Made by a program: the position numbers and the translations under genes | From: Campylobacterales bacterium | Lineage (GTDB): Bacteria > Campylobacterota > Campylobacteria > Campylobacterales > Sulfurimonadaceae | Assembly: GCA_026390165.1 (NCBI GenBank) | Contig: JAPLGM010000022.1 | Location: forward strand, 1-64,000 | DNA length: 64,000 nucleotides | Direction of reading: 5' to 3' | The notes under the pieces: model-generated | Told to the model about the DNA's origin: nothing | Database searches by the model: none | What the model saw: only the letters and a program-made list of their open reading frames with translations | Shown here: positions 31,617 through 45,433 of the stretch, in pieces | Position numbering within the stretch: the first letter of the stretch is position 1 | Layout of the letters: the number at the start of each line of letters is the position of its first letter

Positions 31617-31708
31617 TTTTAAATTCTATCCTATCTGGGTTTAAAGCTACTTTTTTGAATAGCTATTTTGCGATATAACAAAATTAATTTATTTTCGCCT
31701 CTATTTAT

Positions 31709-31744: not shown

Positions 31745-35770
<4,026 letters not shown>

Positions 35771-35784
<14 letters not shown>

Positions 35785-38182
35785 TTTTGGAGTGGATGAG
35801 TCGTTTTTGGCACATACCTCTGTTCATTCCGCTAGTGAGACTCTTATTGCACATTCGGATTTGACATTCGCTTACTATCAAAGAATTGTTGCTTCAAAAA
35901 ACTTAGAACAGATGATTGATGAATTAATAAAAAAGCTTGATAGTGAACATTTTCTATTTATCAAAGAGCTGTTTGAGGGCAGCGTGTATCTTCATGATTT
36001 AGGAAAAACAAATCCTTACTTTCAAGCCAAAAAAATGGCTAATCCGCTGTTTGAGAAATACAAAAATGAAACACACAGCAGTGACCATTCGCTTTTATCG
36101 TCTGAAAAATTTATAGCGTACTATTTGTCGAAAATCAGCCAATTTACCGATAGAGTAACGAGGGAAAAATTAAAATTTATTTTGTATAGCTTTTCATATC
36201 ATCAAGCCAAACACCATGGAGCTTTAGGGATTTTCGAAGAGTATCGAAAAGATGAAACAAATCCAAAAAGTTATATGACGCACCTTGACAAGCTAAACAT
36301 TCCAAATTTTGAATTCTACATCCTCAATAAACTCCTTTTTTCACTTCTCGTTTCCAGTGATTACTATGCCACGACAGAATATATGGCGAAATTCCCAACA
36401 GATGATTTTGGCTTATTTTCAAATGATGATAAAAAGAGATTAAGAGAAAAATTCAACTCACATATCGCAACGTTTCAAAATCCTACAGGCATCAACAAAC
36501 TACGAAATGAAATGTTTGAAGAAGCAGAAATAAACCTGCTCCAAAATCTCGATAAAAACATCTTTTATCTCGAAGCCCCAACAGGAAGCGGTAAAACGAT
36601 TACCTCTATTAACCTTGCATTGCAGCTTTTAAGTGAAAAGCCGAAGCTCAATAAACTTTTTTATATCTTCCCTTTTAATACCTTGGTGGAGCAAACCAAA
36701 AATGTTTTTGATGAGATATTCGGTGATACGCTTAAAATCGAAATCATCAATTCAATCACACCCATCAACATAGATGAAAAAAGCCAAGAAGATAAAGAGA
36801 GCGAATATACAAAGTCGTATATCAATCGACTATTTTTCCACTCTCCAGCTATTATCACCACCCATGTGAGCTTGTTTAATATCCTCTTCGGAACGTCGAA
36901 AGAGGATAATTTCCCACTATGGCAACTCGCCAATAGCGTAATCATACTTGATGAGATACAAAGTTACAATAACCACCTTTGGTGGTATATGGTAGAGTTT
37001 TTTGATAAATATGCCCAAGCATTAAACATCAAAATTATCATAATGTCGGCAACTTTGCCTAAACTCGATTTTTTCTTGGAAAATAAAAGTAATTTTGTAG
37101 ATTTGATACGTCCAGAGAGAAGAAAAGATTTTTTTGAAGATATACTTTTTAAAGATAGGGTCGAAGTTAATTTTTCTTTACTTCCTGAAAAGAAAACAGA
37201 TGAAAAAATGACCCATGAAAGACTTTTTGAACTTTTAGGAAGTCAGCCAAAAGACAAAAAAATACTATTTGAATTTATTAAAAAACAAAGTGCAAGAGAG
37301 TTTTATACCCTCATCAAAGAACAGTTTGACAATGTATATGAACTAAGTGGAGATGATAACAAAGCGTACCGCCAATTTGTCATCAATAAAAGCAAAGAGG
37401 ATACCTCTATTATTATTGTCGCTACGCAGGTGATTGAAGCTGGGGTAGATATTGATATGGATTTGGGCTTTAAAGATATTTCGACTCTTGACAGCGAAGA
37501 ACAGTTCATGGGACGGATCAATCGAAGTTGCAAAAAACAAGGCTCAAAAGTTTATTTTTTTGATATGGATGATGTGGAAAAAATATACCGTGACGACAAT
37601 CGCTTGGGGTTTGATTTGAAAGAAGAAAAATATCGAGAAATTTTGAAAAATAAAGAGTTCGGCGAATATTACAAAGAGGTTTTAGAAAAAATACAGACCA
37701 AAGGTTTTCGTTACAACAACGGACTGCTAACAAACTATGATAACTTTGCAGAGTTGCTTAAAAAGCTCAACTATAAAGAAATCTCCAAGACAATGACGCT
37801 TATCAACTCCCAAAATTTTACCCTTTATTTTCCGTTTCAAATCGATATTTCCCAGTATAAAGGTGTTAAGGAGTTTGATAAAGCCAAATTGGAAGAGAAA
37901 TATTTGAGTGATGGCTTTTTAGATGGTCAAAAAGTGTGGGAAGCATTTCAAGATCTTAATACGATTGATGGCTATGCCAAAAAACAGATTGAAGCTTCCA
38001 AAATTAACGCGTTAATACAATTTTTTACTTTTAACATTTTAAAGTTTAACGAAAAGCAAAGACCTTATATTGGAGAAGAGATTGGCGGATACTATTTTAT
38101 TCAAAACCATGAAGACTTTATTCTTGATGGTAAATTTGACAGAGCAAAATATCTTGCAAAAAAAGAAGAGTTGTTTTTATGA
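35771..38182 (+). CDS. cas3: CRISPR effector nuclease-helicase Cas3
   Basis: 803 residues from the ATG at 35771. N-terminal HD nuclease: H75-D76 in YLHDLGKTNPYF and H144/H148/H149 in SYHQAKHHG. Helicase: Walker A APTGSGKT (269-276), Walker B-like DEIQ (394-397), SATLP, then IVATQVIEAGVDID and QFMGRINRSCK of the C-terminal lobe. It degrades the DNA strand displaced by Cascade. All catalytic motifs look intact, so interference should be possible. It is the last gene before an unusual toxin-antitoxin insertion. Confidence 0.95.
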
Positions 38183-38194
38183 ATATTTATCCGT

Positions 38195-38200
38195 TATAAT
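38195..38200 (+). promoter_or_regulatory. -10 box of the toxin-antitoxin pair
   Basis: A perfect TATAAT lies 12 bp after the cas3 stop and 66 bp before the antitoxin ATG. It would let the pair, and perhaps cas4-cas1-cas2, be transcribed separately from the effector genes. Confidence 0.55.
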
Positions 38201-38226
38201 AGTTACACTAATCTATAAGGTATGAA

Positions 38227-38248
38227 TTGTGACAAGGTACTGTCACAA
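38227..38248. promoter_or_regulatory. Palindromic operator of the toxin-antitoxin pair
   Basis: TTGTGACA and TGTCACAA form a perfect 8-bp inverted repeat around AGGTAC. It sits just after the expected transcription start and before the antitoxin ribosome-binding site (AAAGGAG), the usual place for an autoregulatory antitoxin operator. Confidence 0.55.
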
Positions 38249-38265
38249 ATTAAAGGAGATAATAA

Positions 38266-38511
38266 ATGATAGCACTCAATCTTAATATTCGTGAAGAAGT
38301 ATATGAAAAAATAATTTATTTTTTGCAATCTTTACCCAAAAAAGATGTTCAAATTGTTCAAAAAAGGGTGATTGATGAAATTGATCCTACCATTTTACCC
38401 AAAGAACATTTTGACTATATTAGTAAAAATGAACTAGATGAAATGAGTAGATTAGTTGAAGAAGCAAAACGTATTGGTTTTGACAAATTAAAGAGTTTTG
38501 ATGAGCTATGA
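38266..38511 (+). CDS. Antitoxin of a RelE/ParE-type module inside the cas operon
   Basis: 81 residues, acidic, with an N-terminal strand-helix-helix region (MIALNLNIREEVYEKIIYF) and a helical C-terminus (ELDEMSRLVEEAKRIGFDK) that would wrap the toxin. I do not recognise the DNA-binding fold. The 3' end overlaps the toxin gene by 11 bp and a palindrome lies upstream, both typical of toxin-antitoxin operons. Confidence 0.75.
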   Translation: MIALNLNIREEVYEKIIYFLQSLPKKDVQIVQKRVIDEIDPTILPKEHFDYISKNELDEMSRLVEEAKRIGFDKLKSFDEL

Positions 38512-38767
38512 GATTAAACCCTTAAAGCCCTTTGAAAAATTCTATGCGAAACGTAATGAGAAAGAAAAAGCAGTTATCAAAAGTAAATTTGAACTTCTTA
38601 AAAATGACCCTTATGATTCGAACAGTTTAGATATTAAAAAACTTAAGGGCTTTACCAATAGGTATCGACTTCGAGTTTGGGATTATCGTATTATCTATGA
38701 AATTTATGATGAGGTATTGATTATTATCGCCATAGATGGAGATAATAGAGGAGATGTGTATAAATGA
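38501..38767 (+). CDS. RelE/ParE-family toxin inside the cas operon
   Basis: 88 residues from the ATG at 38501. The C-terminal half RLRVWDYRIIYEIYDEVL followed by IDGDNRGDVYK is the RelE/ParE signature, with conserved Arg in the last strand. RelE enzymes cut mRNA in the ribosome and ParE enzymes block gyrase; which applies cannot be told. It ends 10 bp before cas4, so loss of the cas4-side DNA would also disturb the pair. Confidence 0.82.
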   Translation: MSYEIKPLKPFEKFYAKRNEKEKAVIKSKFELLKNDPYDSNSLDIKKLKGFTNRYRLRVWDYRIIYEIYDEVLIIIAIDGDNRGDVYK

Positions 38768-38777
38768 AATACTTAAA

Positions 38778-39278
38778 ATGACTCTCTTTGGCTTAACTGG
38801 AACCCTCATTAACTACTATTTTCATTGTCAAACCCAATGTTGGATGCACGCTAATCGTCTAAATATGGAAGATAACTCCGAAGATGTCCGTATCGGAAAA
38901 GTCCTCCATGAAATTAGCGAAGAAAAAAGCAAAAAAGTGGAGATTCAAATCGACAATGTGAAAATCGATAAGCTTACCCGTGAGTATTTGGTAGAGATGA
39001 AAAAATCGGATTCTGATCCTGTGGCGGTGAAGTGGCAAGTGTTGCTGTATCTCTATAAGCTCAAACAAAAAGGGATTGAGCGCAAAGGGAAGATTGAGTA
39101 TTTTGAAAAAAATCACGCTACAAAATCGGAAATTTTGGAATTAACACAGGAGAATGAAGCGGAACTTTTGAGTGTGTTAGACGCTATCGAAACATTGATT
39201 CTTCTTCCGATGCCACCACCGCCGAAGTTGGAAAATAAGTGTAAAAAATGTGCGTATTATGAGTATTGTTTTATCTAA
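38778..39278 (+). CDS. cas4: CRISPR adaptation nuclease Cas4
   Basis: 166 residues from the ATG at 38778. RecB-type nuclease fold: His in IGKVLHEIS, acidic residues around VKIDKL, EYLVEMKKSDS (the ExK motif) and WQVLLYLYKLK (the QxxxY motif). Cys residues near the N-terminus (HCQTQCW) and C-terminus (KCKKCAYYEYC) bind the iron-sulfur cluster. Cas4 trims prespacers and checks the PAM. The frame is open to 38736, but that overlaps the toxin. Confidence 0.9.
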   Translation: MTLFGLTGTLINYYFHCQTQCWMHANRLNMEDNSEDVRIGKVLHEISEEKSKKVEIQIDNVKIDKLTREYLVEMKKSDSDPVAVKWQVLLYLYKLKQKGIERKGKIEYFEKNHATKSEILELTQENEAELLSVLDAIETLILLPMPPPPKLENKCKKCAYYEYCFI

Positions 39279-39293
39279 AAGGTGAGAATCGTA

Positions 39294-39319
39294 AAAAAAG
39301 ATAACTGCTTATCTTTTTT
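39294..39319. terminator. Perfect hairpin between cas4 and cas1
   Basis: AAAAAAGATAA and TTATCTTTTTT form a perfect 11-bp stem with a CTGC loop; the A and T runs make it a possible terminator in both directions. It would reduce read-through from the effector genes into cas1-cas2 unless a promoter lies between it and cas1. Confidence 0.5.
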
Positions 39320-39365
39320 AGATTTGGAACTGTAATCATGTGCGTATGCACCGATGGAGGCAAAA

Positions 39366-40678
<1,313 letters not shown>

Positions 40679-40841: not shown

Positions 40842-42713
40842 CTTGAACCGACACAGAGGTTGTATTTAAACACGGAAGCAAAACCGCGTTATGTACCTCA
40901 GAAGACTTGAACCGACACAGAGGTTGTATTTAAACAGCGATATCATCGCATCATAAATAAGCTGAAAATGGCTTGAACCGACACAGAGGTTGTATTTAAA
41001 CCCGACCTGCTGGTTACCTAAGATGTCATTCATGTCGCTTGAACCGACACAGAGGTTGTATTTAAACAGTGGAAAAATGTATCTTTATAATAATACAACG
41101 CTTACTTGAACCGACACAGAGGTTGTATTTAAACCGGCGAGAAATCATGTTTTCAAAATCGTTCAACGCTCTTGAACCGACACAGAGGTTGTATTTAAAC
41201 TGGTGATCCCAACGATGTTGAAACCAAACACGCTCTCTTGAACCGACACAGAGGTTGTATTTAAACGGGAGTATTCAGATTTTGGAAAACTGCTCAAAGA
41301 AACTTGAACCGACACAGAGGTTGTATTTAAACAGACGTGGCTAATGCTATTAATATTGAAGTAGCAACTTGAACCGACACAGAGGTTGTATTTAAACCAC
41401 ACAAAGAGCTACCTTTGATTTGGTAAGTATATCTTGAACCGACACAGAGGTTGTATTTAAACTTTTGAAGTTCAAAATGGCGAAAATCGCACGGTATACT
41501 TGAACCGACACAGAGGTTGTATTTAAACGTTTGTAGAACTCCACCACCGTTAGCTCCGTTTTTCTTGAACCGACACAGAGGTTGTATTTAAACGATATTT
41601 GTATAGCTCGTGACGGTGCGGAATGGGACTTGAACCGACACAGAGGTTGTATTTAAACAATGATGCCGCTTATTACGAAATGAAAACAACACAGCTTGAA
41701 CCGACACAGAGGTTGTATTTAAACTATTCAATCATCTCTTTTAAAAGTTCATGGCTAAACTTGAACCGACACAGAGGTTGTATTTAAACTTTATATCTCC
41801 TATTTTTTGAATTGAGCTGGTTGTCTTGAACCGACACAGAGGTTGTATTTAAACCACCGATAAATTCTACGACGAAAACCGCCCGATCATCTTGAACCGA
41901 CACAGAGGTTGTATTTAAACGGCTTTGCAGTTCCCTCGTATCTTATGTGATAGTTCTTGAACCGACACAGAGGTTGTATTTAAACATTCTAAAATCAATT
42001 ATTTGAAGATTCGCGGGGACACTTGAACCGACACAGAGGTTGTATTTAAACCAGGGAGCTCCACATTACTTTTTCTTCGTCTGTCTTTCTTGAACCGACA
42101 CAGAGGTTGTATTTAAACTTACAGATACTCCCTGCGCTTTTCCGTCAATAGTGGCTTGAACCGACACAGAGGTTGTATTTAAACCGGAGTTTTGTTGATG
42201 GAATATTTAGAGTGTAAGTATCTTGAACCGACACAGAGGTTGTATTTAAACCTTATTGGTACAAGTGCGACGGTTGGAGTTGGGACACTTGAACCGACAC
42301 AGAGGTTGTATTTAAACTCTCAATTCTCAACGATGTACACGTTTTGGAGCGATCTTGAACCGACACAGAGGTTGTATTTAAACACAGCCCCCTCCTCCTA
42401 AAATTTTGCACGATTTCTTGAACCGACACAGAGGTTGTATTTAAACGCCTTATCTTGGATGCTTTGCATGGTTATATTATTACTTGAACCGACACAGAGG
42501 TTGTATTTAAACCTTGGAGCTAAACTACCTAACGATTTTATTGAGCTTCTTGAACCGACACAGAGGTTGTATTTAAACCATGATTGTGAAAATAGAAAGT
42601 GCTATTTACAGTTCTCTTGAACCGACACAGAGGTTGTATTTAAACCAGATATGGCAAAATTCCACTCGATCCACTTCCACCATCTTGAACCGACACAGAG
42701 GTTGTATTTAAAC
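40842..42713 (+). CRISPR. Type I-B CRISPR array, 29 repeats and 28 spacers
   Basis: The 30-nt repeat begins CTTGAACCGACACAG and ends GTTGTATTTAAAC, and all 29 copies read as identical, including the last. Repeats start at 40842, 40906, 40972, 41038, 41105, 41171, 41237, 41303, 41368, 41433, 41499, 41564, 41629, 41695, 41760, 41825, 41891, 41956, 42022, 42089, 42155, 42222, 42288, 42354, 42417, 42483, 42549, 42616 and 42684. Spacers are 33-38 nt, mostly 35-36. An internal AACC/GGTT pairing gives a weak stem. Transcription is expected on the plus strand from the leader, giving crRNAs with the handle AUUUAAAC. Most spacers have an open frame on one strand, as expected for phage or plasmid coding DNA. 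Spacer 24 (42384-42416) is the exception of note: it matches the chromosome at 43459-43491. Confidence 0.98.
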
Positions 42714-42741: not shown

Positions 42742-43389
42742 TTATCTAGGTTTAAAGCTTTCCTTAGTTTTACAATAGCTTTGCAAAAAACACTCCGTAT
42801 CGCATTTAGGATTTTTAGCGGTACAGATATAGCGCCCAAAGAGAACCATCCCTTGATGGAGTTGATGCAAGTTGGTCTTGAATTTTTTGACTAAGGTTGC
42901 CTCAGTAGTAGCTGGGGTGAGATCATCGCTGAGTCCCAGTCGATGACTCACCCGAAATACATGGGTATCTACCGCCATAAGGTTGGCTTGGGTGTATTCG
43001 ATGAGGACGACGTGCGCTGTTTTTTGTCCTACCCCTGCGAGCGTTATTAGCTCTTTTTCATCCAAAGGAATTTCGCCGCTATAGACATCAACGACCCGCT
43101 TCGCCATGGCAATGAGGTTGATGGCTTTGTTGTTGAAAAACGAGCAACTTTGGAGGAGCTGTTTTACGTCGTCAATATTGGCATTTGCCAAATGTTGTGG
43201 AGAGGGATAGGCTTCGAATAATGGAGGGGTAATAATATTAACCCGCTTATCAGTACATTGAGCGGAGAGGGCTACTGCGATGACGAGTTCGTAGGGATTT
43301 TTGTAGGTGAGCTCTGTCACGGCATCCTTGTATCGTTCTACAAGAGTTGCTTTAATGGCTTCAATCTCTTTTTTGGTCGCTTTTTTCAT
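42742..43389 (-). CDS. nth: Endonuclease III
   Basis: 215 residues. It is a DNA glycosylase/AP lyase removing oxidised pyrimidines. The helix-hairpin-helix ELITLAGVGQKTAHVVL carries the catalytic Lys, followed by the Asp in VDTHVFRVSHRLGL. The C-terminal iron-sulfur site reads C-x6-C-x3-C-x5-C (last Cys in LQSYC), one residue longer in the middle than the usual C-x6-C-x2-C-x5-C. It reads toward the distal end of the CRISPR array. Confidence 0.94.
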   Translation of the reverse strand: MKKATKKEIEAIKATLVERYKDAVTELTYKNPYELVIAVALSAQCTDKRVNIITPPLFEAYPSPQHLANANIDDVKQLLQSCSFFNNKAINLIAMAKRVVDVYSGEIPLDEKELITLAGVGQKTAHVVLIEYTQANLMAVDTHVFRVSHRLGLSDDLTPATTEATLVKKFKTNLHQLHQGMVLFGRYICTAKNPKCDTECFLQSYCKTKESFKPR

Positions 43390-43442
43390 TCAAACTCAAA
43401 TCATTTTTTTCGTATTGTACCATCAACTTTACTATATTTATG

Positions 43443-43451
43443 TGTTACAAT
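43443..43451 (+). promoter_or_regulatory. Extended -10 promoter of the hybrid histidine kinase gene
   Basis: TGTTACAAT fits the extended -10 pattern (TGnTAnnnT), predicting transcription start near 43458, one base before the region matched by CRISPR spacer 24. The gap to the divergent nth gene is only about 100 bp. Confidence 0.5.
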
Positions 43452-43458
43452 ATCCGAA

Positions 43459-43491
43459 AAATCGTGCAAAATTTTAGGAGAGAGGGGCTGT
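43459..43491 (-). other. Chromosomal match to CRISPR spacer 24
   Basis: The minus strand here matches spacer 24 (42384-42416) at 30 of 33 positions. Spacer positions 1-8 and 12-33 are identical; positions 9-11 differ. The 8 bases on the PAM side read ATTTCAAT on the protospacer strand, against the repeat handle ATTTAAAC (6 of 8 the same). The match covers the predicted 5' leader of the kinase gene, including AGGAGAGAGG that serves as ribosome-binding site; the spacer would specify AGGAGGAGGG there. Confidence 0.9.
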
Positions 43492-43492
43492 A

Positions 43493-45433
43493 TTGAAATT
43501 TAAAGAATGGATCGTAAATCTACTCAAAGGTCGCAGTGCTGCATACCGTGAAGAGGGGACAGTTGATAAAGATTTTTTTTACAAAGTTTTAGATACAGAT
43601 CCCTGTGCCCTTTTGTTTTTTACGAAAGAGTCGGGATGGATAGGGGCGAATAAAGCTTTTTTTAAATTAGTATCGATTAAAACAATCGAAGAGCTTCGAA
43701 CGAAACATGACTCCATTCGAGAACTCTTTAGTGATGAAGATGAAGAGGTTTTTACAGAGTACGATAAGAGCTGGCTGGATTATATTCGTACTCATTGCCC
43801 CAGTGGGTATGGATTGGGGATTATCGACACGAACGGAACGCGTCATTCGATAGTAGCAACCTCAACGTTGTTGCGTCAAGGTTCCAATGATTTATATCTA
43901 CTTCGATTGGAAGACAAGACAAATATCGTTACACTGCAAGATGAAGTAGTACAAATTGAGGCTCTTAAAACAAAATTCTTAGCAAACATTGGGCATGAAT
44001 TTCGAACACCTATGAACGGTATATTGGGGTTTGTTGATCTTTTATCCAAAACCTCTCTTAGTGATATACAGCTTGAGTATATTCACTCTATTCAAGGTTC
44101 AGCGCACCATTTAATGTCTAATATTGAAAACTTGCTGGATTTAGCGCAGATGCAAACGGGACGTCTTACGGTTAGCCGAATTGATTTTAATATTATTACT
44201 GAGATGGAGGAGCTGGCACGGGGATGTGTTTCGCTTGGGAATGACAAAGGAGTTGGAGTTCTTGTCTTTATTGATCCCAAACTCCCTCATCGCCTTGTAG
44301 GAGATATTCGGAAGATTAAGCAAACGATTACGAACTTGTACAATAATGCCTTAAAATTTACCCCACCTTCGGGGCGCATAACGATAGAGGTGAAGCTCCT
44401 TAAGCGTAATACAACGGGAAGCAGTAATATTGGATTTAGTGTTAAAGATACAGGTAAAGGGATCAGCAAAGGGCAACTTGGTCTTATTACTCGCCCTTTT
44501 GTCTCGGGAGATCATGCCGATAATCGATTGGGTGTTGGGTTGAGTCTTTCACATGGACTTATTAATTTAATGGGGGGTGAGCTTAAAATCACCAGTGAAG
44601 AGGGGCGTGGATCATCATTTAGTTTCGCATTGACACTGGAGGGTTCATCGGATCAAGCTATGAGTATGATTAATTTCCACACCGCGAAAGTGGTATTATT
44701 GGAGGATAAACGTCTCGATGATGCTAACCATTTGACCAATTACTTACGCAGTTTTGGGATGAGTGTTACGAAAATAAATATGATCGATGAGACACTTTTT
44801 AATGATGTGGATGTCGTTTATTTTATTGCTTCTCAAGATAAAGGGGATTGGATCCTTCAACTCGCGTCATTAAAGCGGCCATGTAAGAGTGTTCTTTTAG
44901 TTGAGCATAATGAAAAATTATTGGCAAGAGCGTTGCATGTCATTGATTACACCCTCCATAAGCCTTTGCTTCCGACACGTTTACAAATCCATTTGAGCGA
45001 GGTTTTAGCCCTTTCTAAAGAGACAAAAAGTGTACCGGTGCAATTGCAGCAGGGGACGCATGCCTTGGTGGTTGAAGACAATTTGATTAACCAACGGCTG
45101 ATTAAATTATTACTGAAAGAGTATGGTTTGAATGTTGTAACGGCGTCGAACGGGGATGAAGCGGTAGAGGCATGTCGAAATCAAAAATTTGATATTGTTT
45201 TTATGGATATTGATATGCCAATAAAAGATGGTATTTTAGCAACGCAAGAGATTAAAGCCCAAGAGGGGACTGCACGTCAGGGTCGAATGCCAATTATTGC
45301 ACTGACTGCTTTGGCGATGGAGGGGGATCGAGAGTATATTTTGGGAAAAGGGTTGGATGATTATCTCTCTAAACCTTTGACGCGAGAAAAGCTTGAAACC
45401 ATTCTTCATAAATATTTACACGTCTCAAAATAG
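43493..45433 (+). CDS. Soluble hybrid histidine kinase with receiver domain
   Basis: 646 residues, no membrane helix, so it senses a cytoplasmic signal. Domains: a PAS-like N-terminus (about 28-145), HisKA with H168 in FLANIGHEFRTPMNG, HATPase (about 265-385, VKDTGKGISKGQLG, GVGLSLSHGLI), a degenerate receiver-like segment (about 395-500), and a true receiver (about 518-640) with D572 in FMDIDMP and Lys in DYLSKPL. TTG start at 43493 with AGGAGAGAGG upstream. It is followed 8 bp later by a paralogous kinase. The whole predicted 5' leader is matched by CRISPR spacer 24. Confidence 0.9.
   Translation: MKFKEWIVNLLKGRSAAYREEGTVDKDFFYKVLDTDPCALLFFTKESGWIGANKAFFKLVSIKTIEELRTKHDSIRELFSDEDEEVFTEYDKSWLDYIRTHCPSGYGLGIIDTNGTRHSIVATSTLLRQGSNDLYLLRLEDKTNIVTLQDEVVQIEALKTKFLANIGHEFRTPMNGILGFVDLLSKTSLSDIQLEYIHSIQGSAHHLMSNIENLLDLAQMQTGRLTVSRIDFNIITEMEELARGCVSLGNDKGVGVLVFIDPKLPHRLVGDIRKIKQTITNLYNNALKFTPPSGRITIEVKLLKRNTTGSSNIGFSVKDTGKGISKGQLGLITRPFVSGDHADNRLGVGLSLSHGLINLMGGELKITSEEGRGSSFSFALTLEGSSDQAMSMINFHTAKVVLLEDKRLDDANHLTNYLRSFGMSVTKINMIDETLFNDVDVVYFIASQDKGDWILQLASLKRPCKSVLLVEHNEKLLARALHVIDYTLHKPLLPTRLQIHLSEVLALSKETKSVPVQLQQGTHALVVEDNLINQRLIKLLLKEYGLNVVTASNGDEAVEACRNQKFDIVFMDIDMPIKDGILATQEIKAQEGTARQGRMPIIALTALAMEGDREYILGKGLDDYLSKPLTREKLETILHKYLHVSK

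Follow-up and report, generated by a model that had tools for sequence, protein, structure and literature searches.

Next to its type I-B cas genes, a sulfur-oxidising bacterium of the genus Sulfuricurvum (Campylobacterales) carries a CRISPR array with one spacer that nearly matches the bacterium's own chromosome, just ahead of a histidine kinase gene. This raises the question of whether the crRNA acts on the kinase gene or whether the match records something that happened to the cell in the past. The window, by which we mean the whole 64-kb stretch of DNA that was analysed, contains the following elements.

31745 to 40678, + strand: type I-B cas genes in the order cas6, cas8b, cas7, cas5, cas3, (toxin-antitoxin pair), cas4, cas1, cas2, all full length
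40842 to 42713, + strand: CRISPR array of 29 identical 30-nt repeats and 28 spacers
42384 to 42416, + strand: spacer 24, 33 nt, with the + strand as crRNA sense
43459 to 43491, - strand: chromosomal (near-)protospacer of spacer 24, 30/33; its + strand corresponds to the predicted kinase mRNA 5' leader, Shine-Dalgarno sequence included
43493 to 45433, + strand: gene for a hybrid histidine kinase (HisKA, HATPase_c and receiver domains), TTG start

The match is as the original prediction described it. Alignment of the reverse complement of spacer 24 with positions 43459-43491 gave identity at 30 of 33 positions, with a perfect seed (positions 1-8) and mismatches confined to spacer positions 9-11; if gaps are allowed, an extra A and a missing G can also account for these three differences. 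The runner-up site for this spacer within the window reached 20/33. For all 28 spacers, a match this good is expected by chance about 1e-6 times per 2.64-Mb genome and 2e-8 times per window, in agreement with the view that it lies beyond chance, and spacer 24 is thus a self-targeting spacer. It is the only such spacer in the array, since none of the other 27 matches its own genome, and it is also the shortest, at 33 nt compared with 34-38 nt for the others. The target is found on the trailer side, ~0.75 kb past the end of the array and ~1 kb from spacer 24 itself. The probability that a random genomic source would fall within 1.1 kb of the array is 0.0008.

The target had been taken for the leader of a host gene and not for part of a prophage or mobile element. 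This proved correct, since it belongs to a core locus that is syntenic across Sulfuricurvum. The following element lies immediately ahead of it.

43446 to 43451, + strand: predicted -10 box TACAAT within TGTGTTACAAT, identified by alignment and conserved before the kinase gene across the genus

The TGTGTTACAAT box (43441-43451) is located ~40-50 nt ahead of the kinase start throughout the genus and is likely to be a promoter. Judging from the position of the -10 box, the kinase transcript is predicted to start near 43458, and the target would therefore equal the complete kinase 5' leader including the Shine-Dalgarno sequence. Spacer 24 exactly covers this predicted leader as far as the kinase start codon.

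The cas genes, which had looked intact, are so by profile matches that span nearly the full length of their products. The genome has one copy of Cas1 and no match to the type III RAMP effector (PF03787), and type III co-use of the array for RNA targeting was ruled out on that account. Between cas3 and cas4 there is a small two-gene unit (38266-38767), the second gene of which encodes a ParE-like toxin (PF05016); a toxin homolog that is 47% identical is found in the cas region of a congener, G013. In the related I-B arrays of G013, G083 and G210 the repeats end in ATTGAAAC on the same strand, which is the known canonical 5' handle motif (PMC8482600), and the repeats of the present array end in ATTTAAAC. 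Since this is the 5'-handle strand and cas2 is on the leader side of the array, the crRNA reads left to right (+). This means that spacer positions 1-8 form the PAM-proximal seed and that the PAM slot is 5'-AAT.

43492 to 43499, - strand: PAM slot and flank, reading 5'-ATTTCAAT along the strand of the protospacer, with AAT instead of YCA as PAM

The other 27 spacers yielded no protospacer, and the PAM of this array had to be deduced from a relative. Nothing came from 50,697 phages and 72,556 plasmids searched with the array, or from IMG/VR searched with patterns of four of the other spacers. For the related arrays of G083 and G210 there were no phage matches that could yield a PAM, and further viral contigs collected via transposase or terminase were mostly the same few Mu-like phages, with no new protospacers. 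The expectation was consequently borrowed from G013, whose Cas8b is only 57% identical and whose system, of the same I-B family, has 281 spacers between 282 identical repeats in one array (G013:C33; L078 560-19100). Three independent protospacers are known for G013, located in Mu-like phages, in a prophage and in an element that bears a methylase, and their flanks, CCA, TCA (with TGA as a variant among phages) and TCA, give YCA. The Sulfuricurvum Mu-like phages and prophages matched by G013 spacers with CCA/TCA flanks are L101, L102 and L099, and the TGA found at one targeted site in several phages perhaps represents PAM escape. Campylobacter I-B PAMs are TCA/TCN (PMC8482600), and in the I-B system of Clostridioides difficile, with a YCN PAM, AAT gave no interference (PMC8406132). 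By analogy with these systems, AAT in place of the YCA of three congener protospacers is strongly suggestive of a target that has no functional PAM, as the original prediction had suspected.

The sequence around the slot has a further property. The flank at 43492-43499 equals the repeat handle ATTTAAAC at 6/8 bases (p ~0.009); the flank of the sister species, whose PAM slot is AAC, does so at 7/8 (p ~0.001). Such pairing, extended into the repeat, figures among the listed reasons why self-spacers stay harmless (Stern et al. 2010, as relayed in PMC6509639). With this PAM slot, cleavage by the spacer 24 crRNA would not be expected, and the mismatches beside the seed together with the repeat-like flank would be expected to weaken targeting or binding further. 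A TCA is located 2 nt beyond the PAM slot, and it is possible that the cut slipped 2 nt from this TCA, leaving a spacer 2-3 bases shorter than usual. We offer this as a suggestion, since chance alone places a YCA no more than two bases from the slot in ~13% of cases. A variant of the idea, in which a 35-nt spacer was taken after TCA and AC was then lost, is attractive in that it fits the AAC of the sister species, but is complicated by the A at 43492 here and in several other genomes.

If the crRNA is unlikely to cut, where did the spacer come from? In the sister species G008 (Sulfuricurvum S02.Bin029), the leader AAATCGTGCAAAATTTGAGGAAGAGGGGGCTGT matches spacer 24 at 31/33, and its two mismatches are at other sites than those of the present genome. 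Across the five variable leader sites the spacer has the state of this genome at two and that of the sister at three, which identifies it as a lineage allele of the kinase leader locus. Spacer 24 was thus copied from the chromosomal kinase-leader locus, and its allele looks to be older than the present leader or parallel and related to it, as judged from these sites. None of the genomes searched has a leader that matches at 33/33, as the exact source would. Copying in the reverse direction, from spacer to leader, was rejected since this leader is an ancestral feature of the genus. The claim that spacer 24 is directed at the kinase holds for the match but is not supported for active targeting or regulation, against which stand the AAT slot, the mismatches after the seed and the frozen older or related allele, the last being what an accidental copy would be expected to show.

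The array is not an ancestral neighbour of this locus. The order MTase-nth-kinase, with no CRISPR between, is found in 20 of the 22 relatives compared. In the present genome the island separates MTase from nth, and a direct repeat brackets it.

31632 to 31648, + strand: left copy of the 17-bp direct repeat (16/17), left over from the 3' end of the ancestral nth
42743 to 42759, + strand: right copy, which is the present nth 3' end

A bracketing repeat of 16/17 was reached in 0/300 shuffles, and it looks like the footprint of island insertion, though no integrase was seen. Among 41 Sulfuricurvum genomes the Cas8b family occurs, besides this genome, only in G013, where no CRISPR was found near nth. 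The array is present in this genome only and spacer 24 is shared by no other of the 41. The relatives that lack the island, the bracketing repeat and the CRISPR-free nth of G013 together show that the I-B island arrived late, secondarily, beside nth and the kinase gene, and that the spacer was copied from a neighbour. The clear exception to the ancestral gene order among the 22 relatives is G008, which has a different gene set beside nth, with nth adjoining pyrD. In detail, pyrD-M16-dapA is found there beside nth where other Sulfuricurvum have MTase (G008:C129; L082 12212-13995). This rearrangement and the CRISPR-Cas island of the present genome lie on the same side of nth.

We propose, with a probability of about 0.72, that spacer 24 is a tolerated, inert, self-derived spacer that was acquired locally after the island had inserted; it is most likely a rare but known kind of accident. 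The I-B island would have inserted next to nth and the kinase gene, after which Cas4-Cas1-Cas2 would have copied 33 nt of the nearby chromosome, the kinase leader of that time, into the array. The spacer would have been tolerated because its target was not a working one, with AAT (AAC in the sister species) in place of YCA and a flank that resembles the repeat handle, like the array's own self/non-self signal. The leader would later have been altered at positions 9-11 in this lineage, whether by drift or by escape, although this order of events is our inference. After that change, and with the wrong PAM slot, today's crRNA is most likely inert. Spacer uptake next to active CRISPR loci has been documented in E. 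coli, P. furiosus and H. volcanii (PMC10011333, PMC7521656, PMC8406132). Several points count against this proposal: the PAM was deduced from a relative whose Cas8b is only 57% identical, no genome yielded the 33/33 source allele, a spacer spanning the leader to the start codon is also what a regulatory function would predict, and the published E. coli hotspot is upstream of the array while the present target is on the trailer side.

The alternative that survives best, although we consider it the less likely origin by some distance, is that the spacer was taken from DNA of a related strain or species that had entered the cell, so that it resembles self through orthology only. Spacer 24 is intermediate between the alleles of this genome and its sister and identical to neither, as would be expected of such a source, and partner-derived spacers are known in type I-B systems, among them the Haloferax inter-species mating spacers as cited in PMC7521656, which likewise nearly match a chromosomal ortholog. 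Compared with the Haloferax case as cited, there is no evidence of DNA transfer for spacer 24, and the position of its target 1 kb from the array (0.0008) points to a local origin, unless the donor had the same island. We infer that the cell's own DNA, rather than that of a relative, was the probable source.

Improbable, in our assessment, is that the crRNA has turned regulator, either with Cascade on the leader DNA without Cas3 cleavage or with the crRNA on the Shine-Dalgarno sequence of the kinase mRNA, blocking translation. A fully domesticated antisense regulator, still in the array, lying over the kinase leader and Shine-Dalgarno sequence and repressing without DNA cutting, would be slightly more improbable still. 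The target does comprise the whole predicted 5' leader, seed positions 1-8 pair perfectly, and the predicted crRNA:mRNA duplex (-51.5 kcal/mol) far exceeds those of the other 27 spacers (-9 to -24), but any full-length match would give such an energy; what speaks positively for a regulatory crRNA does not go beyond geometry. Type I effectors would be expected to require a PAM in order to repress at the DNA level, and the slot here is wrong for DNA binding as deduced from relatives. Furthermore, the genome has no type III RAMP proteins and hence no RNA-targeting complex, the pairing is confined to one genome, with no relative having both island and spacer, and CRISPR-free relatives also have the kinase with the same promoter box. 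Shortened I-B crRNAs are able to repress a target gene (PMC10989794), and the guides of CreA and other type I-B regulatory systems (CreTA; PMC9458426, PMC10989794) resemble spacer 24 in being type I guides with a part-match to the leader or promoter of a chromosomal gene. Spacer 24 differs in that its match is nearly full-length and its target is not a toxin. CreA-like guides combine a functional PAM with a partial seed match at the promoter, have ectopic or degenerate repeats, and are conserved together with their targets. Here, the slot is AAT (its status judged from relatives), spacer 24 is inside a canonical array between identical repeats, and guide and target are not conserved together among the 41 genus genomes.

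Most spacers derive from mobile elements, so that a phage or plasmid carrying the kinase leader might be the true source and the chromosomal match secondary; this is very unlikely, since the genus has this leader as an ancestral, syntenic feature and the 33/33 phage or plasmid match that the original prediction had named as a refutation did not appear in the phages and plasmids searched with the array or in IMG/VR, where a degenerate pattern of spacer 24 gave no match. Just as unlikely is an origin without Cas1-Cas2, in which replication would have switched templates between ATTTAAAC at the repeat end and the similar, inverted flank ATTTCAA(C/T) and so copied the leader into the array: the repeat-like flanks of both species, the inverted orientation, the close distance and the odd 33-nt length suit it, but there is no extended homology at the other spacer end, and 33-nt spacers, though rare, are present in other arrays of the I-B family.

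As a probably inert, self-derived spacer, spacer 24 has close parallels. It shares with the PAM-less self-targeting spacers of the category ascribed to Stern et al. 2010 a near-complete match to its own chromosome, a PAM that is probably unsuitable, intact cas genes, tolerance by the cell and a flank that resembles the upstream repeat. It differs from that category, as outlined, in the nearness of its target to the array end (~0.75 kb) and in preserving an older or related allele rather than the present chromosome sequence. The chromosome-derived spacers of C. difficile (PMC8406132) are also type I-B, with a YCN PAM and a non-functional AAT, and those that survived are without functional PAMs. 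They arose in an induced short-term experiment, whereas spacer 24 is a single old entry close to the trailer end of an array found in nature. With the array-adjacent self-acquisition hotspots of E. coli I-E, P. furiosus and H. volcanii it has in common a source that adjoins the CRISPR locus, though in this case the source is on the trailer side and the event is single.

Self-derived spacers are the footprint of CRISPR self/non-self errors, and this one is unusually readable: its source locus is known and next to the array, relatives polarise the arrival of the island, the source allele frozen in the array is an older or related one, and a candidate PAM stands two bases out of register. It represents natural array-adjacent self-acquisition outside model organisms, and provides a ready test of any effect that a PAM-less, seed-matched guide has on the adjacent gene.

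A second tolerated self-spacer of the same I-B family was found in another genus. In G210 (L128 1501-1537; G210:C1:184704-184740), two identical spacers match the genome's own acyl-CoA ligase-like gene at 37/37, with an ATA flank and a target inside the gene body, far from the array. Self-spacers that lack a YCA flank are therefore a recurrent feature of this family, with no particular tie to gene leaders.
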